Of a DNA stretch of 64,000 nt, positions 2,537 to 28,374 are shown in pieces (the first letter of the stretch is position 1; the number at the start of each line of letters is the position of its first letter). The notes below the pieces were generated by a model. It was not told where the DNA came from. It searched no databases and worked only from the letters and a program-made list of their open reading frames with translations. The position numbers were made by a program, and so were the translations under genes. The DNA comes from Ahrensia sp. Its GTDB lineage: Bacteria > Pseudomonadota > Alphaproteobacteria > Rhizobiales > Rhizobiaceae. The stretch covers positions 62,001 through 126,000 of the forward strand of contig PAKZ01000027.1 in assembly GCA_002706335.1 (NCBI GenBank), in the 5' to 3' direction.

Positions 2537-3994
2537 TCAGAAGACCGGCGGGAACGGACGGCCGCCGCGATCGAGCGGGATCCACCGGGTCTCGGTGAAG
2601 GTCTCCATCGACCACTTGCCGCCATGCTTTCCGAGGCCGGATGCCTTGAAGCCGCCGAAAGGCACATGCGGCTCGTCATTCACCGGCGAGCAGTTGACGT
2701 GGCAGTTGCCCGTATCGAGCTTGTTGACGATTGCGAGCGCCCTGCCCTCATCCTCCGACATGACGCCGGCGGTCAGACCGTATTCGCTGTCATTGGCGAG
2801 ACGCACCGCCTCTTCGTCGCTGCCGACCTTGAAGATCGAACAAACCGGGCCGAACGACTCTTCCTGATAGAGCAGCATGTCCGGCGTGACATTGGCGAAG
2901 ACCGTCGGCGAGATGAAGCGACCGTCGATATCGCCGCCGGCGAGAACCGTCGCGCCCTTGGCTTTCGCATCGTCGAAATGCCGCTTGATGCGCTCTGCGG
3001 CACGATCGTTGATCACCGGGCCGAGGATGTTTTCCTTCTTGGACGAGTCGCCGACCGTCAGCTTCTTCACGCGCGGGACGAACTTCTCCACGAACTCGTC
3101 ATAGATGTCCTCGTGGACGATGACGCGTTCGACCGACATGCAGATCTGGCCCTGATGCATGAAGGCGCCGAAATTGGCGGCCTGCACCGCGCGCTCCATA
3201 TCGGCGTCGTCGCAGACGATCATCGAGTTCTTGCCGCCGAGCTCGACGCAGCATTTCTTCAGATGCGCACCCGCCTTGGCGGCGATCTGCCGGCCGACCG
3301 CGGTCGAGCCGGTGAACGAGATGCCCTTGACCAGCGGGTTCTCGATCAGCTCGTCGCCGACCGCGCCGACATTCTCGCGCGAGCATGTCACCACGTTGAG
3401 AACGCCCTTAGGCAGTCCGGCTTCCTCGAAGATTTCCGCCCAGACAAGTCCGCCGCAATAGGGTGTGTCCTCGGACGGCTTCAGGACGATCGTGTTACCG
3501 GCGACCAGCGGGAACAGCAGGCCGCGACCGGTCAGGATCAGCGGGAAGTTCCATGGGCTGATTACCGAAACGACGCCCATCGGACGGCGCACGGCCATCG
3601 AAACCTTGCCATACTCCGAAGGGAGCACATCGCCGATCGAGCCGTAATTGGCCGCGGCAGCGGCGGGAAACAGCTCGGCGGTGTAGCCGGTCTCGAACAT
3701 AGCCTTGCCGAACCAGCCGCCGCCCTCGGCCATCACCGCCTCGGCGATCTCCTCGCGGCGTTTCTCGAAAATCTCGCCCGCCTTGATCAGCAGGTGCGAG
3801 CGCTTCGTGAAAGGCATCTCCGACCATTCGCCGAAAGCCTCATGCGCCGCCTCGATCGCGCGGCGGGTGTCTTCCACCGAAGCGTCCGGAATGTTGGCCC
3901 AGATCGATCCGTCGGAAGGATTATAGTCCGGGAAGGTTTGCGACTTGGTGGTCCAGCCACCGCCGATATACATGCCGTCCAAAACACGTGCCAT
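2537..3994 (-). CDS. NAD(P)+-dependent aldehyde dehydrogenase
   Basis: A 485-residue ALDH superfamily protein of normal length that oxidises an aldehyde to a carboxylate. Visible hallmarks are the PWNFPLIL cofactor-domain motif near residue 153, the catalytic-glutamate motif ELGGKNS, the nucleophile motif GQICMS, and the C-terminal PFGGFKASGLG. These features resemble benzaldehyde/vanillin-type dehydrogenases, but the substrate is inferred only from context. The start ATG is preceded by ACGGAGATAAGAAA, a good ribosome site. It lies 30 nt downstream of livF and is the last gene of the minus-strand ABC operon, which opens with another aldehyde dehydrogenase at 10798. Confidence 0.93.
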   Translation of the reverse strand: MARVLDGMYIGGGWTTKSQTFPDYNPSDGSIWANIPDASVEDTRRAIEAAHEAFGEWSEMPFTKRSHLLIKAGEIFEKRREEIAEAVMAEGGGWFGKAMFETGYTAELFPAAAAANYGSIGDVLPSEYGKVSMAVRRPMGVVSVISPWNFPLILTGRGLLFPLVAGNTIVLKPSEDTPYCGGLVWAEIFEEAGLPKGVLNVVTCSRENVGAVGDELIENPLVKGISFTGSTAVGRQIAAKAGAHLKKCCVELGGKNSMIVCDDADMERAVQAANFGAFMHQGQICMSVERVIVHEDIYDEFVEKFVPRVKKLTVGDSSKKENILGPVINDRAAERIKRHFDDAKAKGATVLAGGDIDGRFISPTVFANVTPDMLLYQEESFGPVCSIFKVGSDEEAVRLANDSEYGLTAGVMSEDEGRALAIVNKLDTGNCHVNCSPVNDEPHVPFGGFKASGLGKHGGKWSMETFTETRWIPLDRGGRPFPPVF

Positions 3995-14019: not shown

Positions 14020-14205
14020 GATCCTGGTTAGATTGAACCTTTCTGCCGGAGCAGGTTTAACCCAAGATCAAGGGATTTGGTGAAGGCCGTATGATGATAC
14101 GGCCAAGCCGAAGCCAGCAGGTATTGGGTCAAACATGCCCGGCCCTTCGGGTTGCCACCCGGCGGACGCGAAACAGAATTGCTTCAATCTAACCGGGACA
14201 GGATC
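14020..14205. repeat. Hairpin-rich intergenic element with terminal inverted repeats
   Basis: This stretch lies between convergent genes and codes for nothing visible. Its ends are an inverted repeat: GATCCTG then GTTAGATTGAA at 14020-14037, and TTCAATCTAAC, CGGGA, CAGGATC at 14183-14205 (a 5-nt insertion in one arm). Inside are a perfect 8-bp hairpin GGCCGTAT/GATG/ATACGGCC at 14085-14104 and a looser pairing of GTTTAACCCAA with TTGGGTCAAAC. The layout fits a MITE, a mosaic palindromic element of the kind known in Rhizobiales, or a structured terminator/RNA. Its right end touches the stop codon of the gene at 14205. Confidence 0.6.
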
Positions 14206-15593
14206 TAGCCCTCCTGCCCCATCTTGCCGGGATTCATGATCCCGGCGGGATCGAGCGCGGCCTTGATGCGCTTCATCACATCGACCGCCGCGCCGTGCTC
14301 CTTGCGCAGATACTTGATCTTGCCCATGCCGATCCCGTGCTCGCCGCTGGCCGTACCGCCGACGGCAAGCGCCCGCTCGACCAGAAGGCCGGACAGCCTC
14401 TCGGCTTCCTCGAGCTCTTCCTTCGAGTTCGGATCGATCAGATAGGCCGTGTGATAATTGCCGTCGCCGACATGGCCGATAATCTGTCCCTTGAGGAAGG
14501 AGGCGTCGATATCCTCGCGCGCCGCAACGATGCTCTCGGCCAGCCGCGAGATCGGCACGCAGATATCGCCGGTGAACAATTCACAGCCCGGCCGCTGCGC
14601 CTTCGTCGCCCAGTAGATATCGTGCCGCGCCTGCCAGAGCTTCGCCCGTTCGTCTGGGTCGGTCGACCAGCGGAAATCCGATCCGCCATGACCGCTGGCG
14701 ATTTCCGCGACGAGCCGCGACTGCTCGTCCACCCAGGCTGGCGTACCGTGAAACTCGAAAAAAAGGGTCGGCGTCACCTTCAGATCGAGACCCGAATATG
14801 CGTTGGTGCCCTCGATGGCGACCTCGTCCATGAATTCGACGCGGGCGACCGGAATGCCGTATTGCACGGTCTCGATCACCGCCTGCACCGCCTCGCCGAC
14901 ATCCTCGAAGGCACAGACCGCCGAGGACACCATTTCCGGGATTGGGTGCAGCCGCACCGTCAGTTCCGTAATCAGCCCGAGCGTGCCCTCGGCGCCGACA
15001 AAGAGATGCGTCAGATCGTAGCCGGTGGAGGATTTGCGGGCTCGCGATCCGGTATGGATCGGCGTGCCGTCCGGCGTCACCACCCGCAAAGCCATCACGT
15101 TCTCGCGCATCGTCCCGTAGCGCACCGCGGTGGTGCCGCTTCCGCGCGTCGACGCCATGCCGCCGAGGGAGGCGTCGGAGCCGGGATCGACGGAGAACAT
15201 CAATCCCGTGGCGCGCAGTTCCTCGTTCAATTGCTTGCGAGTGACGCCCGCCTGCACGACGGCGAGCCCGTCCTTCGGCCTGATCTCGACGATCCGGTTC
15301 ATCTCGCGCGTATCGATCGTGACGCCGCCGCGAACCGGAATAGTATGGCCTTCCATGGACGAGCCGGCACCAAACGGCACCACCGGCACGCCGTGCTTCG
15401 CGCATGCACGCACGATCGCGACAACCTCGTCCTCGTCACGCGGAAAGGCGACCGCGTCCGGCATATGCGGCGCCAGCCACGACGTGTCATGGCTGTGATG
15501 CTCGCGTACCGCGTTGGAGGTCGCCAGCCGGTCGCCGAGAATGGGTTTCAGTTCTTCGACGACGAGGCTGGCGCTGGTCTGGATGTGGTTCAT
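14205..15593 (-). CDS. FAD-linked 2-hydroxyacid oxidase/dehydrogenase (GlcD/D-lactate dehydrogenase-like)
   Basis: A 462-residue VAO-family flavoprotein. The PP-loop region VPVVPFGAGSSMEGHTIPVRGG is at residues ~70-92, the second FAD segment DPGSDASLGGMASTRGSGTTAVRYG follows, and the C-terminal motif SGEHGIGMGKIKYL and AALDPAGIMNPGKM are typical of GlcD and D-lactate dehydrogenases. It oxidises a D-2-hydroxy acid to the 2-oxo acid. Its start overlaps the TPP enzyme stop by 4 nt, so the product of this enzyme may feed that TPP enzyme. Together with the FMN enzyme at 17255 it could handle both stereoisomers. Confidence 0.93.
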   Translation of the reverse strand: MNHIQTSASLVVEELKPILGDRLATSNAVREHHSHDTSWLAPHMPDAVAFPRDEDEVVAIVRACAKHGVPVVPFGAGSSMEGHTIPVRGGVTIDTREMNRIVEIRPKDGLAVVQAGVTRKQLNEELRATGLMFSVDPGSDASLGGMASTRGSGTTAVRYGTMRENVMALRVVTPDGTPIHTGSRARKSSTGYDLTHLFVGAEGTLGLITELTVRLHPIPEMVSSAVCAFEDVGEAVQAVIETVQYGIPVARVEFMDEVAIEGTNAYSGLDLKVTPTLFFEFHGTPAWVDEQSRLVAEIASGHGGSDFRWSTDPDERAKLWQARHDIYWATKAQRPGCELFTGDICVPISRLAESIVAAREDIDASFLKGQIIGHVGDGNYHTAYLIDPNSKEELEEAERLSGLLVERALAVGGTASGEHGIGMGKIKYLRKEHGAAVDVMKRIKAALDPAGIMNPGKMGQEG

Positions 15594-17239
15594 GGATATC
15601 CCTTCGGCATGATGCGCGACGCGTCGATTTCCTTGCAGGTGATGAATTCGAGCAGGGTCGGAATGCCCTCCTCGGTCTTGGCGATGCCGCGCTTGATCGC
15701 CGGCACGATGTCGGCCGGATCGGTCACCCGCTCGCCATGACCGCCAAGCGCGACCGCGAAATCGGCATAATTACCGGAAATGTCGGTCGCGCGGTATTTC
15801 TCCGTCGAAACCTTCATGATCGGCAATTCCATCGCCATCGAGAAATTGTTGAGAAGGATCGACAGGATCGGGATGCGCTCGCGCGCCGCCGTCTCGAAAT
15901 CCATGCCCGTGAAGCCGATGGCCGCATCGCCCCAGACATTGATGCAAAGCTTGTCCGGACAGGCGAGCTTCGCGCCCATGGCAAGGCCCAGCCCGTAGCC
16001 GAGCTGTGTCGACTTGCCCCAGCCGATATAGGAAAGCGGCGTTACCGACTTCCAGAACGGCGAGAGCTGGTCGCGCGGACTACCGGCGTCATGGGGGATG
16101 ATGGTGTTGGCCACATCGACCGTCTTCTGCAGATCCCAGAGCACCCGATAAGGCGACAGCGGCGCATCGTTGGACGTCAGTTTCGGCATCCACTGTTTCA
16201 GCCATGCCGCTCGCACCTGCGCGATCTCGTCGGCGAAGTAGGTCCACGATCGGCGCGCCCCGCCGCGTGCGCGGATTTCCGCCAGCATCGCATCGAGCGT
16301 CAGCGCGGCGTCTCCGACCAGCGCAACTTCGGACTCGTAATCCTTGTTGATGTGATCGGCGTCGAGCGTGGCGTGAATCACACGTTTCGGCGCTTTCGGC
16401 ATCTGCACGCCGAAGGCCGTCTCGGTGAACGAGCAGCCGACGCCGAAGATGACATCGGCCTCATCGAGGAAATGCCGGATCGTCATGGGAATGGCCGCAC
16501 CGCCGGACCCCAGCGCCAAAGCATGGTCTTCGGGAAACGCGCTCTTGCCTTCCAGGCTGGTCGAGACCGGGATTCCCAGGTGCTCGGCCAGTTCCTTCAG
16601 TTGCGGCCAGGCCTTTGCGTAATGGATGCCCTGCTCGGCATAGATCACCGGACGCTTCGCCTGAAGCAGTACATCGACGGCTTTCTTCACCGCGTCCGGA
16701 TCGGGGCCGCTGCGCGTCGAGACGACCGGCTTGTAGGTCAGTGGATCGGGGACTTCCTCGTCCCAGATATCGTTCGGAATTTCGACCAGCACCGGTCCGC
16801 CACGGCCATTGCGCAGTTTCGAGAAAGCCCGCCGCATGATGTTGACGAGTTCGCGTGCATCATTGACTGGCTCAGTCGATTTCGTGACGTCGCGCATCGA
16901 TATCGACGGATTGAAATTCGGATCGATATGGGCCTGCCGCCGCGCGTACCCACCTGGCATGACAAGTACGGGGACCGACTCCGCATACGCCTGTGCGACC
17001 GCACCGTAGGAATTCTCGATACCCGGTCCGGACTGGCAGACGAACACGCCGATCTTCTCGCCGGACGTCATACGCGAAATCGCGTCTGCCATATGCAATC
17101 CGGTGCGTTCCTGACGTACGATAATCGTGCGAATATCCGCGATTGCCGCATGTTCCAGCACGTGATTGACCGGATAGCCGATCACAAACTCAATGCCTTC
17201 CCTTTTCAGGATCTCGGCAATTGCCTCTCCGAATTTCAT
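15590..17239 (-). CDS. Thiamine diphosphate-dependent enzyme (acetolactate synthase/2-oxoacid decarboxylase-like)
   Basis: A 549-residue TPP enzyme. The first domain has RQERTGLHMADAISRM with the catalytic glutamate near residue 44 and QSGPGIENSYGAVAQA. The C-terminal TPP/metal motif is GDAAIGFTGMDFETA, ending in LLNN. It lies between the FMN 2-hydroxyacid dehydrogenase (15-nt gap) and the FAD 2-hydroxyacid oxidase (4-nt overlap). The likely job is decarboxylation or carboligation of the 2-oxo acid those enzymes make. It is distinct in sequence from the TPP proteins at 755 and 23378. Confidence 0.9.
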   Translation of the reverse strand: MKFGEAIAEILKREGIEFVIGYPVNHVLEHAAIADIRTIIVRQERTGLHMADAISRMTSGEKIGVFVCQSGPGIENSYGAVAQAYAESVPVLVMPGGYARRQAHIDPNFNPSISMRDVTKSTEPVNDARELVNIMRRAFSKLRNGRGGPVLVEIPNDIWDEEVPDPLTYKPVVSTRSGPDPDAVKKAVDVLLQAKRPVIYAEQGIHYAKAWPQLKELAEHLGIPVSTSLEGKSAFPEDHALALGSGGAAIPMTIRHFLDEADVIFGVGCSFTETAFGVQMPKAPKRVIHATLDADHINKDYESEVALVGDAALTLDAMLAEIRARGGARRSWTYFADEIAQVRAAWLKQWMPKLTSNDAPLSPYRVLWDLQKTVDVANTIIPHDAGSPRDQLSPFWKSVTPLSYIGWGKSTQLGYGLGLAMGAKLACPDKLCINVWGDAAIGFTGMDFETAARERIPILSILLNNFSMAMELPIMKVSTEKYRATDISGNYADFAVALGGHGERVTDPADIVPAIKRGIAKTEEGIPTLLEFITCKEIDASRIMPKGYP

Positions 17240-17254
17240 TACTCAAACCCCTGT

Positions 17255-18493
17255 TTACTCGTAGTTTTTTTGTCCGGCTCCGCCGGCTTTAAAATCGTCA
17301 TCCACCCAGGCGCCGCGATGCCTTACGGCAAGTCCTTTTGCGCCCGAGACTGTGCATGCGCCCGTCTGTACGAGCGCGATCCGGAACTCCTCCATTAAGG
17401 TCGCGCAGACATGCCGGGCGCCGTCCGCGCCGAGAGCTGCAAGCCCCAGCATGAAAGCGCGCCCCACCATGACGCCATCGGCGCCGCAGGCCAGCGCCTT
17501 CACCATGTCCAATCCGGACATGATCCCACTATCGAATAAAATCGTTGATTTCTTGCCAACCGCCGCCCTGATCGCCGGCAGGACATCGATGGTCGCCGGC
17601 GATGGGTCGAACTGCCGGCCGCCGTGATTGGATACGATTACACCGTCCAAACCGAGGGACACTGCTTTTTCAGCATCGGCCGGATGCAGGATTCCCTTGA
17701 CCGTCATCGCGCCCGGCCATGCGTCGCGAAATCGCGCCACCATCTCCCACGTCGCGCCGCCTCCCGGCCGTCCCTTGCTGACGAACGCGTCGATCTCCGC
17801 CTTGCTCGCTCCTTCACGGCAATAGGGCGCAAAATTCGCAAAGCGCGGCAGACCGTTGCGCGCCAAACCCGCCAGCCAGGCGGGCCGAAGCAGCGTGCCA
17901 AGCGCCATTTTCGGCGAAACCCGGAGCGGAACGCTCAGACCGTTGCGCATGTCGCGCACCCGTCGGCCCGCACCCGGGATATCCAGCGTCACCGTCAGCA
18001 TCCGGGCATCGGCATCGCGCGCGCGGCGGATCAGGTCGAAGCTGACCGCATGATCGTTGCCGGCAAACGTGTAGAGCTGGAACCAGAAATTCTCGCCTGC
18101 GATCGCTGCGGCATTCTCGATTGAACCGGCCGACATCGAACTCATCATATAGCCGATACCGGCCTCTCGCGCCGCTTCCGCCAAATGGCTGGACGCGTTC
18201 GGCCATATCGCCCCGTCCATGCCGATCGGGCCGATCGCCATCGGCGCATTGAATGTCTGGCCAAACAGGGAAGCCGACATACTCGCCGACGAGATATCGA
18301 CACCGTAACGCGGCACGATCTCGATCCCGCGCAGCGCCTCGATATTGCGCCGCCGCGACAGTTCCTCGCCGGTACCGCCCTGCAGATAGTCATACACATA
18401 ATAGGGAAGCCGGCGGCGCGCAGCCTCCTCCAAATCGCCCAGAACCGGATAGCGCAATCGCGATTTTGCGAGACGGATGTCGCGCGCATTCAT
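17255..18493 (-). CDS. FMN-dependent L-2-hydroxyacid dehydrogenase (LldD/mandelate dehydrogenase-like)
   Basis: A 412-residue TIM-barrel flavoprotein. Features: YYVYDYLQGGTGEE near residue 30, PMAIGPIGMDG, the FMN/substrate segment FQLYTF, MTVKGILHPADAEKA with the FMN lysine, the catalytic VSNHGGRQFDPSPAT, and DSGIMSGLDMVKALACGADGVMVGR. It oxidises an L-2-hydroxy acid (lactate, glycolate, mandelate or similar) to the 2-oxo acid. The ATG at 18493 is chosen over a longer frame from 18619 because GGGAGGGAAAAGGC precedes it. First gene of the operon with the TPP enzyme and FAD oxidase, divergent from the TRAP operon. Confidence 0.93.
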   Translation of the reverse strand: MNARDIRLAKSRLRYPVLGDLEEAARRRLPYYVYDYLQGGTGEELSRRRNIEALRGIEIVPRYGVDISSASMSASLFGQTFNAPMAIGPIGMDGAIWPNASSHLAEAAREAGIGYMMSSMSAGSIENAAAIAGENFWFQLYTFAGNDHAVSFDLIRRARDADARMLTVTLDIPGAGRRVRDMRNGLSVPLRVSPKMALGTLLRPAWLAGLARNGLPRFANFAPYCREGASKAEIDAFVSKGRPGGGATWEMVARFRDAWPGAMTVKGILHPADAEKAVSLGLDGVIVSNHGGRQFDPSPATIDVLPAIRAAVGKKSTILFDSGIMSGLDMVKALACGADGVMVGRAFMLGLAALGADGARHVCATLMEEFRIALVQTGACTVSGAKGLAVRHRGAWVDDDFKAGGAGQKNYE

Positions 18494-18551
18494 GCCTTTT
18501 CCCTCCCATGGGACGGGCGTTTCCGCCCTCTTCGTCCCAGTCCGCCTCATC

Positions 18552-18564
18552 CATACGATGTATG
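18552..18564. promoter_or_regulatory. Short palindrome upstream of the FMN dehydrogenase operon
   Basis: CATAC-GAT-GTATG is a perfect 5-bp inverted repeat about 59 nt upstream of the FMN dehydrogenase start. A second inverted pair in the same 277-nt divergent spacer is TATCACC (18667-18673) and GGTGATA (18695-18701), nearer the TRAP side. Either could be a GntR-type or other operator; no cognate regulator is obvious nearby. Confidence 0.3.
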
Positions 18565-18770
18565 CATGTGCGCGTCCAATCAGTTTCCCGCCGCCTTCGG
18601 CAGCGCACACGCCAGACACAGCGAAAAAACCGCTGCCCGGTCATCACGTCGCACTGAATAGCCCAATATCACCTTGCCGTCGCCATCGTTCTGTGGTGAT
18701 ACTTAACATGAGTTGTATTTGGAAGCGACCTGGGAGGATACCGGTCGCCAGACAATTCGAGGGAGGAATT

Positions 18771-19924: not shown

Positions 19925-20947
19925 ATGAAACGCATATTGCTTGCTGCCTTGGCGAGTACAGCTCTGATGGCCGGATCCGCTCAGGCGGCGGAGGTGGAAC
20001 TCGCGCTGTCCCATTGGGTACCGGCCACCCACCCGCTGCAGCCGCTCGGAATGGAGCCCTGGGCAAAGTCGATCGAGGAAGATTCCAACGGTCGGATCAA
20101 GATCACCATATACCCGTCGCAACAGCTTGGCGCTGCGCCGGACCACTATGACATGGCGCGCGACGGTATCGTCGACATCGCCTTCATCAACCCGGGCTAT
20201 CAGGCCGGCCGCTTCCCGATCATCTCCGCTGCGGAACTGCCCTTCCAGGCATCCAATGCGAAGGGCGGTTCGCGCGCTGTCGCCGAATGGTACGCCAAAT
20301 ATGCCGAGAAGGAGATGGGCGACACCTACGTCTGCATGGTCCATTTCCATGATCCGGGCACGATCCACTCCAAGGAAGGACCGCTTGCGGTTCCGGCCGA
20401 TCTGGAGGGCAAGAACATCCGTCCGCCAAACGGCACGATGGCGCAGATGTTTGCATCTCTGGGCGCAGCCAACGTACAGGTCCCCGCCCCCGAGATGCGT
20501 GACGCGCTCGAAAAGGGCACGGCCGACATGACCGGTTCGCCCTGGGGCTCGCTGTTCACCTTCGGTATCGAGGACACGGTGAAGTATCACCTGGATACGC
20601 CGCTTTACGTTACGGTTTTCGCCTTCGTCATGAACAAGGCCAAGATCGACAGCCTTGAGCCGCAGGATCGCGAAGTCATCGACAATCACTGCACACCGGA
20701 ATGGTCGGAAAAGATGGCCTCCGGTTGGGCCGACGGGGAAGCGGCAGGTCGCCAGAAGATCATCGATCTTGGCGGTCACACGCTCCACAAGCCGAACGAC
20801 GAAGAGATGAAACTCTGGCGCGACGCGGCTGCCCCGATGACCGAGAAGTGGAAAGAGGCTGCTGCCAAGACCGGCATCGACACGGATGCCGCGCTGGCCG
20901 ACCTGCGTGACACGCTGAAGAAATACGACTCGCTTCTCGGCCAGTAA
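19925..20947 (+). CDS. TRAP transporter substrate-binding protein (DctP-like)
   Basis: A 340-residue periplasmic receptor with a signal peptide ending in AGSAQA, followed by AEVELALSHWVPATHPLQPLG. It contains the TRAP receptor features YPSQQLGAAPDHYDMARDGIVDI and a conserved VPAPEMRDALEKGTADM stretch with the ligand-clamping region. It captures a carboxylate and delivers it to DctQM downstream. It closely resembles the interrupted copy 131 nt upstream, so the pair arose by tandem duplication. CAGGAGGAACACAGC is its ribosome site. Confidence 0.95.
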   Translation: MKRILLAALASTALMAGSAQAAEVELALSHWVPATHPLQPLGMEPWAKSIEEDSNGRIKITIYPSQQLGAAPDHYDMARDGIVDIAFINPGYQAGRFPIISAAELPFQASNAKGGSRAVAEWYAKYAEKEMGDTYVCMVHFHDPGTIHSKEGPLAVPADLEGKNIRPPNGTMAQMFASLGAANVQVPAPEMRDALEKGTADMTGSPWGSLFTFGIEDTVKYHLDTPLYVTVFAFVMNKAKIDSLEPQDREVIDNHCTPEWSEKMASGWADGEAAGRQKIIDLGGHTLHKPNDEEMKLWRDAAAPMTEKWKEAAAKTGIDTDAALADLRDTLKKYDSLLGQ

Positions 20948-21027
20948 GCCGAAATTTCTGACACCGAACCGGGGCAGGCAGCATCGCTGCCTGCCCCTCA
21001 CCTGTACCGGACCTTCGAGAGTTTCGG

Positions 21028-21555
21028 ATGATCCTTTTCCTTGAACGTTTCTGCAAAGTGGTGGAGGCCGTTGCCGGCCTCCTGTTGCTTGCATGCACCA
21101 TCCTCATCGTCGCATCGGCCCCCGGACGCTACCTGTTTACCTGGCCGATCCCCGACGCATTCGACATATCCCGCCTGCTGATCGGCGCCTGCATCATGTG
21201 GGGTTTCGCCTCGGTCGGTTATCGCGGCGGCCATATCAAGGTCGACCTCTTCGCGGAATTGATGTCACCGCGGGTCCGGCGGATCGTCGACGTCTTTGCG
21301 TGGGCGATGCTGCTGTTCTTCGTCACCCTGCTGACATGGAAGATGTTCGAACGCGTCGAAAGCGCAATGCGCAGCAATGAAGCAACCTTCGACCTGCGCA
21401 TTTCCGTCTGGCCGCTCATGGCCCTGATCTGGGCCGGGACCGCGGTGACGATCATCACCGTTCTGGTCCGGCTTTATCTCGTCGCCACCGGACGCGGCGA
21501 ACTGGAACACAGTGAATCAAGCGAATTCGGAGACGAGCCCAATGGCGACCGGTGA
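21028..21555 (+). CDS. TRAP transporter small permease (DctQ-like)
   Basis: A 175-residue protein with four hydrophobic segments (around residues 10-30, 45-65, 88-110 and 130-150) and the family's GFASVGYRGGHIKVDLF segment. It partners DctM at 21542, whose start it overlaps by 14 nt, and DctP upstream. An 80-nt spacer separates it from dctP. Confidence 0.92.
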   Translation: MILFLERFCKVVEAVAGLLLLACTILIVASAPGRYLFTWPIPDAFDISRLLIGACIMWGFASVGYRGGHIKVDLFAELMSPRVRRIVDVFAWAMLLFFVTLLTWKMFERVESAMRSNEATFDLRISVWPLMALIWAGTAVTIITVLVRLYLVATGRGELEHSESSEFGDEPNGDR

Positions 21556-22837
21556 CTGGATTGCCCTTGCGGGCTTTATTGCACTCTTTGCAATGATTGC
21601 CCTGCGCGTGCCGATCGGCGTCGCGATGGGTCTGGTCGGCGTCTTCGGTTTCGCCTCAATCCGCGGAATCAACCCGGCGCTGAACCTTCTTGCGACCTCG
21701 CCGATCCGCGTCATCGCGGATTTCAACCTCAGCCTGGTGCCATTCTTCATCCTGATGGGTATCTTCGCGACCAATTCCGGCATGTCGCGCGAGCTCTTCA
21801 GAGCAGGCAACGCCTGGCTGGGATCGTTCCGGGGCGGCCTCGCGCTGTCGACCATCGCCGCCTGCGCGGGCTTTGCCGCCATTTGCGGGTCGACCGTCGC
21901 CACCGCCGCGACGATGACCAAGATCGCCCTGCCCGAAATGCGCCGCTTCGGCTATCGTGACGAAACCGCTTCCGGCGTCATCGCCGCGGGCGGCACGCTC
22001 GGCATCCTGATCCCGCCATCGGTGGTGCTGGTCGTCTATGGCTACATAACCGAAACCGATGTCGGCAAACTGTTCATCGCCGGCATTCTGCCGGGCATTC
22101 TCGCCATGGCGATGTATATGGCAACGGTCCTGATCGGCCACCGAAAGGGCCTGCCCGAGGGTCGTCCTTTCAGCGGGCGCGAGGCGATCGCCTCCCTGTC
22201 GGGCATCTGGGCCGTCATCCTGCTCTTCGTCGCCATCATCGGCGCGATCTATTCGGGCGTTGCCACGCCGACGGAAGCCGCCGCAGTCGGCGCCTTCCTC
22301 ACAATGGTCATCGGCATCGTCCGCGGCCGGCTGAATGTTCGCTCGATCATCGACAGCCTGACGGAAGCCCTGCGCACCTCCGTCGCGGTCTACACGATCC
22401 TGATCGGCGCCGTGCTGTTTGGATATTTCCTCGCGATCACCCAATCGCCGCAAAAGCTGACAGCCATGCTGATCGGTTTCGATCTGGGGCCCTATGGAAC
22501 GCTGACCCTGATCCTCGGGCTATTCGTCGTGGCGGGCTGCATCCTCGACTCCATGGCGATGATCATCCTTCTGGTGCCGATTGTCTTCCCGGTCATCGTC
22601 CAGCTCGGCTTCGACCCGGTCTGGTTCGGCATCATCATCGTCATGACAGCGGAATTGGGCCTGATCACGCCTCCGGTCGGCATCAACGTCTTCGTCATCA
22701 ACACGATCGCCAAGGACGTGAAGCTGACGACGATCTTCAAGGGGGTCGTTCCCTTCATCGTGTCGGACATTTTCAGGCTGGCCCTACTTGTCATGTTCCC
22801 GGGCATCGTGCTGCTCTTGCCCATGACGATGAATTAG
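21542..22837 (+). CDS. TRAP transporter large permease (DctM-like)
   Basis: A 431-residue inner-membrane transporter with about 12 hydrophobic helices. Signatures: GSTVATAATMTKIALPEMRRFGY, GGTLGILIPPSVVLVVYG, SGVATPTEAAAVGAF and ELGLITPPVGINVFVI. ATG 21542 (after TCGGAGACGAGCCC) is preferred; a GTG 30 nt upstream is possible. It moves the receptor-bound organic acid inward with Na+. Paralogue of the truncated DctM at the window start. The likely cargo is the acid metabolised by the neighbouring hydroxyacid and TPP enzymes. Confidence 0.95.
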   Translation: MATGDWIALAGFIALFAMIALRVPIGVAMGLVGVFGFASIRGINPALNLLATSPIRVIADFNLSLVPFFILMGIFATNSGMSRELFRAGNAWLGSFRGGLALSTIAACAGFAAICGSTVATAATMTKIALPEMRRFGYRDETASGVIAAGGTLGILIPPSVVLVVYGYITETDVGKLFIAGILPGILAMAMYMATVLIGHRKGLPEGRPFSGREAIASLSGIWAVILLFVAIIGAIYSGVATPTEAAAVGAFLTMVIGIVRGRLNVRSIIDSLTEALRTSVAVYTILIGAVLFGYFLAITQSPQKLTAMLIGFDLGPYGTLTLILGLFVVAGCILDSMAMIILLVPIVFPVIVQLGFDPVWFGIIIVMTAELGLITPPVGINVFVINTIAKDVKLTTIFKGVVPFIVSDIFRLALLVMFPGIVLLLPMTMN

Positions 22838-22847
22838 GAGGCGACAG

Positions 22848-23306
22848 ATGAAAGCACCCGAACTCCGCCCGCTTTGCGTGATCACCGCCGAACTGGCGGC
22901 GCCGATGGAAAAGGGCTCCGCGCCGGGCGGCACGGCGCGGATCATTCCGATCATAGGCGGCAAAGTCGAGGGCGAGCGGCTGAGCGGCAAAGTCCTCAAC
23001 CTCGGAGCCGACTGGCAGACGGTTTTCGACGACGGCTATGCCGAACTCGACACCCGCTATGCGATCGAGACCCATGACGGCGCGCTGATCGATATCCGCA
23101 ATTTCGGCTTCAGGCATGGTCCCAGCGACGTGCTCTCCAGGTTGGCGGCCGGCGAAGATGTCGATCCGTCGCTCTACTACATGCGCACCCAGCCGCGTCT
23201 GCAAACCGGCGATCCGCGCTATGCATGGCTCAACCGAACGGTCTTCGTCGGCACCGGCGAGCGTCACGCCAGCGCGGTTCGGATCGGCCTGTTCGAGGGT
23301 CTCTGA
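22848..23306 (+). CDS. DUF3237 family protein
   Basis: A 152-residue small protein whose layout (LRPLCVITAELAAPMEKG, IPIIGGKVEGERLSGKVL, GADWQTV, YAIETHDGALIDIRN, and the end WLNRTVFVGTGER) matches the DUF3237 family. No signal peptide or membrane segment is seen. It follows dctM by 10 nt and is the last gene before a terminator, so it belongs to the TRAP operon. Members occur near aromatic and hydroxyacid catabolic genes; the biochemical role is not known to me. Confidence 0.88.
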   Translation: MKAPELRPLCVITAELAAPMEKGSAPGGTARIIPIIGGKVEGERLSGKVLNLGADWQTVFDDGYAELDTRYAIETHDGALIDIRNFGFRHGPSDVLSRLAAGEDVDPSLYYMRTQPRLQTGDPRYAWLNRTVFVGTGERHASAVRIGLFEGL

Positions 23307-23330
23307 ACGCCCGATCGCGCAAATGAAAAA

Positions 23331-23358
23331 GGCCGCCGGAGCGATCCGGCGGCCTTTT
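23331..23358. terminator. Bidirectional rho-independent terminator
   Basis: A perfect 10-bp stem GGCCGCCGGA, loop GCGA, TCCGGCGGCC, flanked by AAAAA on the left and TTTT on the right. It lies between the convergent DUF3237 and fusion-gene stops and can serve both strands. The GCGA loop is the same as in the terminator at 2487. Confidence 0.88.
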
Positions 23359-23377
23359 CGCATCTGAAGGCTGTTCG

Positions 23378-26300
23378 TCAGCCGAAATGGATCGTCTTGG
23401 TCTCGATGTAGTTGTCGAGGCCCTCCGGTCCGCCCTCGCGGCCCATCCCTGACTGCTTGAACCCGCCAAAGGGATGCTTCGGATCGACAATCATGCCGTT
23501 GACCGTGACGCTGCCAGTGCGCATGCGCCGCGCCATCGCGTAGCCGCGCTCCGGATTGGAGGTGAACACCGCGCCCGACAGTCCGTAATCGGAGTCGTTT
23601 GCCTTGCGGGCAGCGTCTTCCTCGTCGGTGTAGGAGATGATCGAGACAACCGGGCCGAAGATCTCTTCCTGCGCGATCTTCATCGACGGATCGACATCGA
23701 CGAAGACGGTCGGCTCGATGTAGTAGCCGGTGTTCAGGCCGGCGGGACGACCTCCTCCACAGGCAATCGTGGCGCCCTCCTCGCGGCCGGCGGCGATATA
23801 GCCCTGCACGCGTTCGAGCTGGCGCTGCATGGTCAGCGGGCCCATCTGCGTTTCCGGATCGAACGGATCGCCCACCTTGATGTTCTTCACCGCACCGACA
23901 TACATGTCGACGAATTCCTGCTTGCGAGATTCCGGCACCAGGATGCGGGTTAGCGAGAAACAGACCTGCCCGGTGATCGGCATCGAGTAGATCATCAACG
24001 GCATCATCGCCGCGCCGAAATCGGCGTCGTCGAGCAGCACCGCCGCCGACTTGCCGCCCAGTTCGAGGCTGACGCGCGCCAGACGGTCCGAACAGGCCGC
24101 CGCGATCTTCTTGCCGGCCATGGTGGATCCGGTGAAGGCGACCTTGTCGATATCCTTGTGGCGGACGAGGTAATCGCCGCTTTCGCGACCGGCCGGCACG
24201 AGGTTGAAGACGCCCTTCGGCAGGCCCGCCTTCTGGATGCATTCGGCCAGGATATAGGCTTCGAGCGGCGTTTCGGGGGATGGCTTGGCGACCATGGTGC
24301 AGCCGGCCGCCAGCGCCGCGGAAACCTTGTAGGCCAGCAACACGAGCGGCGCGTTCCACGGCGTGATCGCCGCACAGACGCCGACCGGCTCCTTGACGAC
24401 TTTCACCTTGCCGCCATCGTCACGCGACCGGTCGTCGACGAAGGGATAGGTCTCGATCAGGTCGGCATAATAGTTGAAGAGCGTCGGGTTCTGGCCGACC
24501 AGCTTCTTGGTCAACATGATCGGCGCCCCTACCTGCAACGTCCAGGAATGGGCAATGTCATCGAGCCGCTCGGTCAGCAGATCCGCCACCTTGCGCAGGT
24601 AGCCGGCGCGTTCCGCCGGCGACATGCGCGGCCACGGGCCGTTGTCGAAAGCTTCGCGTGCCGCTGCGATGGCGCGATCCATGTCTTCCGTCGACGCTTC
24701 CGGATAACGCATCACCAGTTCTTCAGTGACGGGCGAGATGACATCGAGCGTCTTGTTCGACAGCGGCGTGACCCATTCGCCATTGATGAAGAACTTGTCG
24801 GGTGCGCCTGGCGTGACCTCGTTGTTCAGTGATACATTCACGTTCATTGCGGATTCCTCCTCCGAGAGAATGATTTCGAGCAGTCGCGGCCCTTTGCGCC
24901 GCAACATGTCTTCAATGCATGACGACAGTTTGGCGCCGTCGTCGCAACGCACGGCCGGACAGCCCTGCGCCTGCGCTATTTCCACGAAATCGATATGGCC
25001 GATATCGACGCCGTCGATGCGGCTGTCCCGATCCGCCATGCCTTTCAGCGCGCCGTAGCCGCCATTGTTGAACACGACCACGAAAAGATCGGCGTCATAT
25101 TCGGCCGCAGACCAGAGCGACTGGATGGCATACATGCTGGACCCGTCACCGACGATGCAGATGACCGGCTGATCCGGCCGGGTCAGCGCCGCACCCACCG
25201 ACGCCGGAAGGCCGTAACCGAGACCGCCGCTGGCCGTCGCGAAAAACCCGCGCGGCCGTTCGATCGGGAAATGGTCATGCAACGCCCCCCGCCCGGTCGG
25301 CGCTTCCTCGACGATGATGCTGTCGGGCGAGCGCAAATCGGCCAGTGTCTGATAGGCGAGTTTCGGCGTGATCGCCCGCGTGACCGGCACCCGCGCGATC
25401 TTGCGCGCCGGCTGGCTCGCCCCGTTGTCGCGCGCTCGAACGCGCCAGTGCAGGCCCTCGGCTGCAGCCTTGATGTCCGCGCGGACGGCGGAACCCGAGA
25501 CGGCTCCCGCGATCTGGCTCGGGTCGTCGGTGATCAGGCAGAGCTCTGCACCCTCCGGGATATGATCGCCGGTCCCGGGGAAGTGGTAGGTAAAGGCCGG
25601 ACCGCCGAGAACGAGGATGTAGTCAGAACCCTCCAGGCTCTGGCGCAATCCCGGCTGTTTGGCCGGTAGGAAACCGGCAAACAGCGGATGCCGTTCCGGA
25701 AAACTGCAGCGCGAAGAAAGCGGGGTGGCCCAGACTTTCGCACGCAACTTCTCGGCCAGCCGGACGGTCTCATCCCATGCACCGTCGATATCGACACCGG
25801 GGCCGACGACAATGACCGGCTCGCGCGCCGCATCCAGTTTCGCAGCGACGTCGTCCAGCGCCTGTGCGTCGCATCCAAGCGCCGTCGCGACCTTGCGGCG
25901 CGGCACCTCGATGGCCGGCTTGTCCCAATCGCTGAGCGGTACCGACACGACCACCGGCCCGCGCGGAGCCTGCATCGCCATGTGGTAGGCGCGAGCGATC
26001 GCCGCCGGCACATCCTCGGCGCGCGCGGGCTCGATCGCGAATTTGACATAGGGCTTGGGAAACTCGACCGGGCTTTCGTTGAACAGGAACGGATCATGCG
26101 GCAGCAGATCCCGCGTCTGCTGGCCGGTCGTGACGATCAGCGGCGCGCGATTGCGGAAGGCCGTGTAGAGATTGCCCATGGCATGGCCGAGCCCGGCCGC
26201 CGAATGAAGATTGACGAAGGCGGCTTTCCCGGAAACCTGCGCATAGGCGTCGGCCATGGCCACCACGACGGATTCCTGCAGGCCGAGCACATAGGAGAAA

Positions 26301-26458
26301 TCCCCCGGCAAATCGACGAACATCGGCAATTCCGTCGAACCCGGATTTCCGAACACCCGGTCGATCCCCTGCCCGCGCAGGAAATCAAACACGGCCTCGG
26401 CAACTGTCAGCGCGCCAAGCTTCGCTCCGGACAGGACGTCCGTCGACATGCGGTTCAT
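23378..26458 (-). CDS. Benzoylformate decarboxylase-aldehyde dehydrogenase in-frame fusion
   Basis: A continuous 1026-codon frame. Residues 1-537 are a TPP decarboxylase like MdlC: GNPGSTELPMF near residue 38, LHSAAGLGHAMGNLYTAFRN, and TPP/metal motif GDGSSMYAIQSLWSA at ~437. Residues 538-1026 are a complete ALDH starting MNVNVSLNNEV, with PWNAPLVLL, ELGGKSAAVLL, nucleophile GQVCFS and PFGGFKQSGMG. The junction reads SEEESA-M; those linker codons are a ribosome site (GGAGGAGG, 8 nt before the ATG at 24847). Each half has the usual length of its stand-alone family. Decarboxylation of a 2-oxo acid and oxidation of the aldehyde could thus occur in one polypeptide or two. Start at 26458 follows CAGGGAGGATGC. 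Confidence 0.88.
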   Translation of the reverse strand: MNRMSTDVLSGAKLGALTVAEAVFDFLRGQGIDRVFGNPGSTELPMFVDLPGDFSYVLGLQESVVVAMADAYAQVSGKAAFVNLHSAAGLGHAMGNLYTAFRNRAPLIVTTGQQTRDLLPHDPFLFNESPVEFPKPYVKFAIEPARAEDVPAAIARAYHMAMQAPRGPVVVSVPLSDWDKPAIEVPRRKVATALGCDAQALDDVAAKLDAAREPVIVVGPGVDIDGAWDETVRLAEKLRAKVWATPLSSRCSFPERHPLFAGFLPAKQPGLRQSLEGSDYILVLGGPAFTYHFPGTGDHIPEGAELCLITDDPSQIAGAVSGSAVRADIKAAAEGLHWRVRARDNGASQPARKIARVPVTRAITPKLAYQTLADLRSPDSIIVEEAPTGRGALHDHFPIERPRGFFATASGGLGYGLPASVGAALTRPDQPVICIVGDGSSMYAIQSLWSAAEYDADLFVVVFNNGGYGALKGMADRDSRIDGVDIGHIDFVEIAQAQGCPAVRCDDGAKLSSCIEDMLRRKGPRLLEIILSEEESAMNVNVSLNNEVTPGAPDKFFINGEWVTPLSNKTLDVISPVTEELVMRYPEASTEDMDRAIAAAREAFDNGPWPRMSPAERAGYLRKVADLLTERLDDIAHSWTLQVGAPIMLTKKLVGQNPTLFNYYADLIETYPFVDDRSRDDGGKVKVVKEPVGVCAAITPWNAPLVLLAYKVSAALAAGCTMVAKPSPETPLEAYILAECIQKAGLPKGVFNLVPAGRESGDYLVRHKDIDKVAFTGSTMAGKKIAAACSDRLARVSLELGGKSAAVLLDDADFGAAMMPLMIYSMPITGQVCFSLTRILVPESRKQEFVDMYVGAVKNIKVGDPFDPETQMGPLTMQRQLERVQGYIAAGREEGATIACGGGRPAGLNTGYYIEPTVFVDVDPSMKIAQEEIFGPVVSIISYTDEEDAARKANDSDYGLSGAVFTSNPERGYAMARRMRTGSVTVNGMIVDPKHPFGGFKQSGMGREGGPEGLDNYIETKTIHFG
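24856..24863 (-). promoter_or_regulatory. Internal Shine-Dalgarno site for the ALDH half of the fusion
   Basis: GGAGGAGG on the minus strand, 8 nt before the ATG at 24847. It is an ideal ribosome-binding site lying inside the fused frame, and suggests that the ALDH half is also, or only, translated by independent initiation. A TGA overlapping the ATG (ATGA) exists in the +1 frame, which is how a normal decarboxylase gene in such an operon would be expected to end. Confidence 0.75.
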
Positions 26459-26567
26459 GCATCCTCCCTGCGGCCCTTATGAAGGCACATCTCCTTTTGA
26501 AGGCATTGTCGCAGACAAAGCCCTGACATGGAATTGAAGAATTAGCTCACATGCATTACAAAAGGGC

Positions 26568-27488
26568 ATGACTTTAGGTGTTCGATCCGCCGCCATCATG
26601 CTGGAATGCGCGCGCCGCGGAAGTCTCGGCGCGGCCGCCAACGCGCTTAACATGACCCAGCCAGCGGTTACCCGCATGCTCAAGCGGCTGGAAGACAGCT
26701 ACGGGGTGCCGCTGTTCGACCGGACCACGCGCGGCGTCGTGCCGACAGTCTATGGCGAAGCGCTACTGCCATACGCAAAGCTGATCGTCTCCGAGATCGG
26801 CAATGCCGATGATGTCATTCGCCAGATGCGCGGCGCCAGCCGCGGCGTTGTCCGCATCGGCGGCGTGGGCAGCGTGGTCGGCGGATATATCATGGCCGCG
26901 GTGACCGCGATGCGCGCCGACCATCCCGAAGTTCAATTTCAGATTGTCGAGGATCTGGAGGACAGGGTTCTCGAAGGCCTGAAGAGCGGCAGCATCGATA
27001 TCGCCATCTCGCCGGAGCCTTATGTCGATGACGAGATCACGTTGGCAACGCCTGAAGCCATGCATGATCTGGTCGCCGTGTTCTGCCGCAGCGGCCATCC
27101 TATCCTCGAGATGAAAACCGTCTCGCTTGCGGATGCCGCCAGACAGGACTGGATATTACCGCCCTACGGCACACCCACGGTTCGCGAATGGCAGCGGCGT
27201 TTCCATGGCCAGGCAATAGAGCCTCTGGCCCCGAAAGTGGTCTCGCGCTCGGTCCAGGTCGTAAAATCTGCTGTCATGACCGACGCGCTTCTATGCTGGA
27301 TGCCCCTGCCCCTCATGCGCACCGAAATGGAACGCGGAGAGATCGCCCGCGTCCCGATCCCGGACCTCGAATGGCGGCGCACCTTCCGGATCTACCGCCG
27401 CAAGAAGGGATTGCTCACGCCGTCCGCGGCGATCCTGATCGACTGCCTCCGCAAAACCGCGGAGAGCTGGTCCAACGAAGTGCGTTGA
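26568..27488 (+). CDS. LysR-family transcriptional regulator
   Basis: A 306-residue regulator. The N-terminal winged helix-turn-helix is clear: AAIMLECARRGSLGAAANAL, NMTQPAVTRMLKRLEDSYGVPLF, then DRTTRGVVPT. The remainder is a two-lobed effector domain of usual length. It is divergent from the decarboxylase-ALDH fusion (109-nt spacer, 26459-26567) and most likely controls it in response to the pathway acid. Its stop is 3 nt from that of the convergent hydrolase. Confidence 0.94.
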   Translation: MTLGVRSAAIMLECARRGSLGAAANALNMTQPAVTRMLKRLEDSYGVPLFDRTTRGVVPTVYGEALLPYAKLIVSEIGNADDVIRQMRGASRGVVRIGGVGSVVGGYIMAAVTAMRADHPEVQFQIVEDLEDRVLEGLKSGSIDIAISPEPYVDDEITLATPEAMHDLVAVFCRSGHPILEMKTVSLADAARQDWILPPYGTPTVREWQRRFHGQAIEPLAPKVVSRSVQVVKSAVMTDALLCWMPLPLMRTEMERGEIARVPIPDLEWRRTFRIYRRKKGLLTPSAAILIDCLRKTAESWSNEVR

Positions 27489-27491
27489 CCC

Positions 27492-28280
27492 TTAGAGCGT
27501 CGCGACGAAGGCCCGAATGACCGCGACAAGCGTTTCCGGCTGTTCCACGCATGGAAGATGACCGGCCTCGGAGATCACCTCGTAATTCGCGCCGGGGATA
27601 GCTTTCGCCATGGCAAGCACGAGATCAGGCGGCGTCGAACCGTCCTGATCGCCAACAACGCACAAGGTCGGCACACCGATTAGCCCGGCTTCGCGCGTAT
27701 AGTCGACATCGCGCAATGCCGCACATGTCCCCGCATAGCCCGCCACCGGCGTCCGCGTCAGCATGTTGCGATAACCGGCGAACTCGCCATTGCCGGTGCT
27801 TCGAAATGCCGGTGTGAACCATTTTTCGAGGATCCCGTCGGCAAGCGCGGCAATGCCGCTTTCCTCTACCGTCCGGATCCGGTCGTTCCAGCCATCCTCG
27901 TCGCCAATCTTTGGCGCCGTGTCGCACAGAATGAGCGCGCGCACGAGATCCTTGCGCCGCGCATACAGCCCCTGGGCGATCACACCGCCGACGGACAGTC
28001 CGCAGATGATGACGTCCCGAAGCTGGAGATGATCGAGCAACGCCTCCAGATCGGAGACATGATCGTCCATCGAATAAGGTGTTTCGCCGGTATCGCTGAG
28101 CCCGTGGCCGCGCTTGTCATAGGTGACGATGGCAAAATCGCCGGCCAGCCGCACGATCACATCGCGCCAGATCCGAAAATCGGTGCCAAGCGCGTTGGCG
28201 AAGACGATGACCGGCTTGCCGGCGGGCGCGCCGATCGTCTGGTAGTGGATCGCGACATCGTTGAGATAGGCAAACTGCAT
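27492..28280 (-). CDS. Alpha/beta-hydrolase, 3-oxoadipate enol-lactonase-like
   Basis: A 262-residue alpha/beta-hydrolase fold protein. It has VIVFANALGTDFRIW (oxyanion region), YDKRGHGLSDTG, the nucleophile elbow CGLSVGGVIAQG with serine near residue 95, catalytic aspartate in VVGDQDGSTPP and histidine in SEAGHLPCVEQPE. Sequence style is that of PcaD (enol-lactone hydrolysis in the beta-ketoadipate pathway), but no other pca genes are in the window, so the substrate is open. ATG 28280 has GGGAGAAACGGCC upstream. Confidence 0.87.
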   Translation of the reverse strand: MQFAYLNDVAIHYQTIGAPAGKPVIVFANALGTDFRIWRDVIVRLAGDFAIVTYDKRGHGLSDTGETPYSMDDHVSDLEALLDHLQLRDVIICGLSVGGVIAQGLYARRKDLVRALILCDTAPKIGDEDGWNDRIRTVEESGIAALADGILEKWFTPAFRSTGNGEFAGYRNMLTRTPVAGYAGTCAALRDVDYTREAGLIGVPTLCVVGDQDGSTPPDLVLAMAKAIPGANYEVISEAGHLPCVEQPETLVAVIRAFVATL

Positions 28281-28374
28281 TGGCCGTTTCTCCCTTCGCG
28301 CCACTGCCTATCGGCACAGCGCCGAAGCCGCAACACCCCGGATCGGCAATGCCCGGCGAAGTCCAAAGCCGCGA

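Follow-up and report, generated by a model that had tools for sequence, protein, structure and literature searches.

A conserved decarboxylase–aldehyde dehydrogenase gene fusion whose linker coincides with a retained, putative internal translation start

The benzoylformate decarboxylase (BFD) of R. jostii RHA1, as described in the available passages of two reports, converts 4-hydroxybenzoylformate to 4-hydroxybenzaldehyde and 4-hydroxy-3-methoxybenzoylformate to vanillin, and its cluster also holds vdh and a flavin mononucleotide (FMN) glycolate oxidase gene (PMC9811514, PMC10167727). Those passages name BFD and vdh as separate enzymes and mention no fusion, whereas in the DNA studied here a BFD and an aldehyde dehydrogenase (ALDH) are parts of one polypeptide (PMC9811514, PMC10167727). 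This DNA, hereafter the window, is a whole stretch of 64,000 nucleotides from Ahrensia sp. (GenBank assembly GCA_002706335.1, contig PAKZ01000027.1, positions 62,001 to 126,000 of the forward strand), and the gene in question (23378..26458, minus strand) encodes, in a single frame found in 22 distinct sequences, a protein of 1026 aa (~110 kDa). No report of this BFD-ALDH fusion was found in the literature searched, which consisted of open-licence papers. Fusions of pathway neighbors and genes with an internal in-frame start are both known kinds, and a fusion is usually expected to leave the translation start of the second gene to decay. Here, the ALDH start has been kept across many species and itself forms the linker. 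It is this point that is unusual: with a ribosome-binding site retained as the linker, both dual products and easy fission become plausible. The fusion is real and conserved, and not an artefact. As judged from sequence comparison, we think it reasonably probable that two consecutive steps of aryl-C2 (mandelate/benzoylformate-type) catabolism were fused long ago, that the ALDH start was kept as the linker, and that the gene yields both a fused enzyme and free ALDH.

The gene has no internal stop (0 across the 1026-codon frame), and Pfam recognizes TPP_enzyme_N/M/C at aa 18-529 followed by Aldedh at aa 562-1023. The BFD domain (aa 1-531; 24866..26458, minus strand) scores 668.2 bits against the NCBIfam benzoylformate decarboxylase model NF005485, which is over the curated cutoff of 493. 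Open reading frame, Pfam, and NF005485 thus bear out what the first-pass annotation had proposed, a BFD-like domain and a complete ALDH in one 1026-codon frame. Ser26, Glu47, His70, and His281 of 1bfd, which we take to be its catalytic residues, are all aligned and identical in the BFD half, which is probably a decarboxylase of the benzoylformate type. Phe397 of 1bfd, presumably a pocket residue, is replaced by Ala in the alignment; this would be compatible with larger substrates, and the specificity may differ from that of 1bfd. As for the ALDH domain (aa 538-1026; 23381..24847, minus strand), it matches PF00171 with 537 bits, over the cutoff and along profile positions 1-461 of 461 (i.e., as a full-length domain). 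Its best solved relative is 3b4w, and the Asn, Glu, and Cys motifs, which we take to hold the ALDH active-site residues, are aligned and kept. No named ALDH equivalog (BADH, HpaE, SSADH, etc.) passes its NCBIfam cutoff among the 25 shown of 96 families, the best score being 454 bits vs. a BADH cutoff of 668.6.

An AlphaFold2 model of the fused protein, built from a 26-row alignment, has a mean predicted local distance difference test score (pLDDT) of 83.5 and a predicted template modeling score (pTM) of 0.52, most of both domains being confident. The pLDDT falls below 50 at residues 534-550, and also at 1-14, 120-134, 469-472, and 478-485. Residue 530 closes the last BFD strand and residue 556 opens the first ALDH strand, and the intervening linker (about aa 532-552; 24803..24865, minus strand), of which aa 534-550 are predicted to be disordered, would be flexible between two mostly confident domains. 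Since the model does not resolve the orientation of the domains, channeling cannot be judged from it.

The junction codons are CTC TCG GAG GAG GAA TCC GCA ATG AAC, which read L-S-E-E-E-S-A-M-N. They contain a Shine-Dalgarno (SD) sequence, GGAGGAGG (24856..24863, minus strand), read as Ser-Glu-Glu-Glu codons in the fused frame and separated by 8 nt from an in-frame ATG (24845..24847, minus strand). This ATG encodes Met538 and is the putative start of a free ALDH of 489 aa (~52 kDa). With a duplex energy of -12.1, GGAGGAGG is the strongest of 60 in-frame start-codon sites scored in the window's gene and similar to the SD of the full-length start (26462..26469, minus strand; -11.1 kcal/mol). ATG-AAY is found at the junction in 22/22 fused genes, and GAGGA in 21/22. 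When duplexes with the 16S tail were scored, leaving out the first 7 and last 100 codons, the junction SD was better than all in-frame ATG/GTG/TTG sites in 19 of the 22 genes, and strongest among ATGs alone in 20; in many of them its energy is comparable with that of the gene's own upstream SD. Moreover, few windows of each gene are less structured than the 45-nt segment around the internal ATG (median rank within the lowest 2.4%, range 0.2-16%). At the protein level, Met538 and Asn539 are the sole invariant residues within residues 532-552 across the 22 sequences, counting the columns that no sequence leaves empty (columns 543-544 have a residue in just one sequence), while 7 of the 29 Mets of the reference are invariant in the whole fused protein. 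Two fused genes (L011 and L044) have a longer linker after Met-Asn than the other fusions, with extra residues that include WRP.

The internal ATG is also where most stand-alone relatives of the ALDH begin. In 17 of 19 stand-alone orthologues (67-81% identity), the first codon, ATG or GTG, is aligned with Met538 and the second is AAY, so that Asn after the start is common to 22/22 fused and 17/19 stand-alone genes; the other two (L048 and L049) do not share this arrangement. SD energies of the 17 aligned starts are between -10 and -12.5 in 14 genes and weaker in three (L012, L118, and L120). The junction had been described in the first-pass annotation as an SD 8 nt before the normal ALDH start, a description with which these orthologues agree. 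A TGA overlapping this ATG in the +1 frame, taken there as a sign of a former decarboxylase end, is indeed present, the junction reading ATGA, but it is in itself no trace of such an end because ATG followed by any A implies TGA. A tblastn search (E<=10) of the 19 stand-alone loci, mostly with ~1.5 kb of flank, found no BFD remnants upstream of the ALDHs. One stand-alone ALDH (L146, from G1060 in the genus of G047) has a start region, CAGAGGAGGAGCACGCATGAATGTC, that is much like the junction of the fused genes in that genus, and this is perhaps another released ALDH.

The search for the same fused architecture in related genomes was productive. Both domains are in one frame in 28 loci (one partial, L148), which represent 22 distinct coding sequences including the window's own, and one further fused locus (L022) ends at a contig edge shortly after the internal Met. 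Fused genes occur in several Rhizobiales genera; among the matches listed by source, the best 80 of 580 confirmed stretches, are those of Neorhizobium tomejilense, N. vignae, Xaviernesmea oryzae, Aquamicrobium zhengzhouense, and metagenome-assembled genomes of Oricola, Phyllobacteriaceae, and Hyphomicrobiaceae. Identity to the window is 64-81% for the BFD and 77-92% for the ALDH. The genome samples that we used overlap in part, and their E thresholds differ. In the family sample (297 genomes, E<=1e-120), 33 genomes match, with whole fused genes in four (own, G144, G047, and G232), a truncated fused match in G262, and stand-alone ALDHs of 69-81% identity in 11, the rest being more distant. The order sample (397 genomes, E<=1e-180) has fused genes in the own genome and G047, and ALDH only in four others; the class sample (385 genomes, E<=1e-150) has a fused gene in the own genome only, with two ALDHs at 55-56%. 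At a finer scale, the fusion is found in 2/6 genomes of the own genus and in 14/57 of the genus of G047, where there is also one ALDH only and one unfused BFD of 49%. Among the six genomes of the genus of G144, G144 itself has a fused gene, G1113 a partial and G262 a truncated one, G053 has ALDH only, and two have no match at the threshold used.

With the BFD as query, 23 genomes of the phylum sample (398 genomes, E<=1e-120) match, two of them with a fused gene (own and G047), while the best BFD matches of the other 21 have 45-53% identity. Across the genome samples, no unfused BFD was found above 53% identity, and every BFD of at least 60% among those found is fused. By contrast, all 29 BFD loci examined at 40-52% identity (18 of the 21 from the phylum sample and 11 from other samples) stop after the BFD. 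They do so a few to ~20 residues past the last strand, so that, apart from the SD codons, hardly any linker was gained in the fusion. An ALDH lies up- or downstream in the fetched flanks of eight of these 29 loci, but its identity to the fused ALDH is no more than 32-36%, and no ATGA overlap is seen in the four where a same-strand ALDH follows the BFD. This is far from the picture of relatives that all keep separate genes overlapping by ATGA, which the first-pass annotation had seen as the outcome that would count against a fusion. Stops between the TPP enzyme and ALDH matches are found in G133 and G209, which lie outside the loci examined. Three matches that resembled fusions were rejected: that from Variovorax, a single alignment piece spanning 80% of the query, consists of two separate genes with a different ALDH, and those from Caballeronia and Ochrobactrum are annotated as separate genes. 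On plasmid p2 of Caballeronia insecticola, the genes for a distant 2-oxo acid decarboxylase and an ALDH overlap by ATGA (L123:4563-4566); this match has 32.5% identity. An ATGA overlap of the kind that the first-pass annotation pictured before the fusion thus does occur in a related pair of enzymes, and the fusion may have had an ancestor of this type.

According to the reading that we favor, the thiamine diphosphate-dependent decarboxylase half would act on substituted benzoylformates (ArCOCOOH -> ArCHO + CO2), and the ALDH half would convert the resulting aryl aldehyde to the acid. The fusion would have run the C terminus of the BFD straight into the start region native to the ALDH gene, the SD turning into linker codons. 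Initiation upstream would yield the bifunctional ~110 kDa protein, its two halves flexibly linked, and initiation at the retained internal SD-ATG-AAY would yield the ~52 kDa free ALDH. On comparative grounds, internal initiation at codon 538 is likely; any benefit would lie in aldehyde channeling or in extra ALDH subunits. The junction Glu codons are GAG in 54/60 cases vs. 493/1252 elsewhere, an excess that is only suggestive because the sequences are related.

Several observations weigh against this reading. Synonymous shuffling gives p values of 0.02-0.80 per gene for SD strength, so that codon choice contributes little that the protein sequence does not already dictate, and the low structure at the site is mostly accounted for by amino-acid content (syn-shuffle fractions 0.025-0.61). 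Synonymous conservation ranks codons 533-534 at 84/1014, 134/984, and 200/964 windows, and codons 533-535 at 199/1022, 298/1006, and 345/991 windows (20, 13, and 10 sequences, respectively). In these synonymous tests, selection on the RNA cannot be told apart from selection on the protein, and they lend the internal start little support. In addition, in one fused gene (L043, 1244-4318) the internal ATG is still there but the SD is gone (-4.6 kcal/mol), which makes this gene a natural control on the need for free ALDH. Elongating ribosomes may mask the internal site, and the substrate class is read from gene context. The suggestion made in the first-pass annotation, that one mRNA gives both a fused enzyme and free ALDH, is favored by comparison (conserved SD, ATG-AAY, low structure, and orthologue starts); the synonymous tests add little to it.

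The weakness of these tests speaks for another, although in our view unlikely, explanation, a pure fusion, in which the 110 kDa protein is the only product and the SD-like codons and the Met are relics, kept since an acidic, flexible EEE linker suits the protein. That L043 is still fused after losing its SD, and that the linker is predicted to be flexible, also speaks for it. However, it does not readily explain why Met-Asn is invariant in 22/22 sequences amid varying linker residues, a linker Met having no obvious structural role. Nor does it explain why, in the 4/22 fused genes where the third junction Glu is changed to Lys or Asn, GAGGAG is retained.

Our favored reading may be extended to a reversible gene fusion, given that the ribosome-binding site and start codon of the second enzyme themselves make up the linker. 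One gene would give fused enzyme and free ALDH in the same cell, the ALDH could be released by losing the upstream part, and free subunits would let two oligomeric enzymes fuse without forming open-ended networks. We put this forward tentatively, as an idea with somewhat less than even chances. Release of the ALDH by upstream loss, with no repair, is suggested in one genus by the comparison of G053 and G144. The stand-alone ALDH of G053 (L013) groups with the fused ALDHs of G144 and G1113 (L009 and L148) with support of 97/94. Upstream, the loci of G053 and G144 keep the same gene order in blocks of 72-79% nucleotide identity. They share there a gene for an acyl-CoA synthetase (726 bits, cutoff 777), which we would liken to FerA, a gene resembling LigM (628 bits, cutoff 580), and a third one that matches methylenetetrahydrofolate reductase only weakly (27 bits, cutoff 294). 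G053 is without the LysR and BFD of the G144 locus, and homology picks up again beside GAGGAG-ATG, at L150:12077; past the ALDH, the DNA of the two loci differs as well. In L039, from another genus, the LigM-like gene and two further upstream genes are followed by LysR and the fusion. Given this upstream synteny in L039, L150, and L157, loss of LysR and BFD is the simplest reading of the stand-alone ALDH in G053, insertion or recombination in the opposite direction being possible. Homologues of the reductase-like gene are also near the ALDHs of L012, L023, L047, and L048, showing that stand-alone and fused ALDHs have neighbors in common.

Whether there was one fusion with later fission or replacement, or several independent fusions, was weighed on the trees. 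The fused BFD domains form one clade, 23/23 (FastTree, 33 rows, midpoint-rooted). In the ALDH tree, in which 14 fused rows of 22 (near-copies left out) were compared with 21 others, a single clade of fused domains is rejected by the approximately unbiased (AU) test (p = 0.020), the test group having been chosen after a first tree had shown fused ALDHs to be scattered. Four changes of state are needed in that tree, two of them forced by well-supported branches. A tree that holds the six closest fused rows together and leaves out L013 is not rejected (p = 0.138), so the nesting of L013 is favored but not forced, and neither is a loss in G053. While both ALDH results leave room for independent fusions, we regard these as rather improbable in view of the single BFD clade, the similar junctions, and the position and synteny of the G053 gene, which is most simply explained by loss.

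A role in elongation, in which anti-SD pairing with the SD-like codons pauses the ribosome at the domain boundary and lets the BFD fold first, would account for a strong SD-like stretch at precisely this place. It leaves the invariant ATG-AAY unexplained, stand-alone genes have similar SD sequences before their start, and SD-induced ribosome pausing is itself disputed; we therefore consider it very unlikely. Finally, a recent indel or sequencing error joining two adjacent, coupled genes, an option in the first-pass annotation that a junction with ATGA and no extra linker sequence and the distant Caballeronia pair might have favored, is rejected as practically untenable because 22 distinct genes from different assemblies have the same fused frame, down to 64% BFD identity.

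As for its surroundings, the fusion is flanked by a divergent LysR regulator gene (26568..27488, plus strand), which adjoins it in 7/8 named loci and in L009 and L011; L043 lies on a short contig with no neighbor gene visible, hence no LysR seen. On the other side is a convergent gene for a DUF3237 protein (22848..23306, plus strand), which is kept in 5/8 named fused loci and adjoins the fusion in six other loci (L038, L040, L041, L045, L046, and L009; 68-90% identity), and was not found beside it in L039, L043, L044, and L011. Its product may belong to the pathway. Between these convergent genes, we noticed by eye a hairpin, GGCCGCCGG...CCGGCGGCC (23331-23354), with A and T runs on either side, which is likely a two-way terminator. 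A promoter/terminator scan of 23250-26650 listed none and missed this hairpin too, probably because only four T follow. Beyond lie genes of a tripartite ATP-independent periplasmic (TRAP) transporter, DctP-DctQ-DctM (19925..22837, plus strand), all or part of which is beside the fusion in L038, L040, L041, L044, L045, L046, L009, and L011 (6/8 named fused loci, but not found in L039 and L043).

Further genes point to the chemistry. An FMN-dependent 2-hydroxyacid dehydrogenase of the mandelate dehydrogenase/glycolate oxidase type (17255..18619, minus strand; PF01070), whose solved relatives include (S)-mandelate dehydrogenase, has homologues near the fusion in L038, L039, and L044. A flavin adenine dinucleotide-linked GlcD-like 2-hydroxyacid oxidase (14205..15593, minus strand), below the glcD cutoff, has them in L039, L040, L041, L045, and L046. 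There is a second TPP enzyme gene (15590..17239, minus strand; NF004807, 851 bits), also near the fusion in L039 and L150, and a gene for a PcaD-like 3-oxoadipate enol-lactonase (27492..28304, minus strand; TIGR02427, 340 bits, cutoff 256). The LigM-like gene of L150 (628 bits, cutoff 580) has homologues in L149, L151, L152, L157, and L039, and a LigM-like O-demethylase gene is found elsewhere in the own genome (628 bits, over the cutoff). The LigM-like and reductase-like neighbors bear on whether the ALDH might be a vanillin or aryl aldehyde dehydrogenase placed among genes for methoxy-aryl catabolism. The cluster would fit import of substituted mandelates and their oxidation to benzoylformates, followed by decarboxylation and aldehyde oxidation by the fusion, and as a whole it would serve to take up and oxidize aryl 2-hydroxyacids (aryl-C2, lignin-type fragments). 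Near the window start, another TPP-type enzyme gene and ALDH gene (755-2464 and 2537-3994) are convergent and unfused.

This system makes it possible to ask whether a fusion still yields its unfused partner, which ratio of the two is required, and whether a toxic aldehyde is channeled when a decarboxylase is fused to its ALDH. For lignin-derived aryl acids it is a source of ready-made bifunctional enzymes, and it lets fusion and fission be traced inside one genus.

When the locus is compared with known systems, its combination of FMN hydroxyacid oxidase, BFD, and ALDH genes resembles that of the R. jostii RHA1 cluster as far as described in the passages cited, the chemistry here being deduced from the genes (PMC9811514, PMC10167727). 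Unlike that cluster, as these passages present it, the window has LysR and TRAP transporter genes adjoining the fusion. In the published excerpt on bzfRABCD of Pseudomonas sp. LLC-1, BFD and benzaldehyde dehydrogenase genes are beside a LysR gene, as in the window, and mdlC/mdlD of P. putida, cited in the same excerpt, encode a similar BFD and benzaldehyde dehydrogenase pair (PMC7760541). However, the bzf enzymes are described there as separate open reading frames with a transporter gene in between, whereas those of the window are fused (PMC7760541). As for the proposed dual products, internal in-frame starts of the Cas11b type, in the portion of that report available, also let one gene give a long protein and its C-terminal part (PMC11899642). 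In contrast to Cas11b, the short form that we propose from sequence would be a complete metabolic enzyme, with stand-alone orthologues starting at the same codon (PMC11899642). Finally, bifunctional dehydrogenases of the AdhE type, as outlined in the section consulted, resemble the fusion in that one protein performs consecutive steps through a reactive aldehyde (PMC7080775). The enzymes concerned are different, and that section claims no internal start for AdhE (PMC7080775), whereas in the fusion described here the second enzyme appears to have kept its own.

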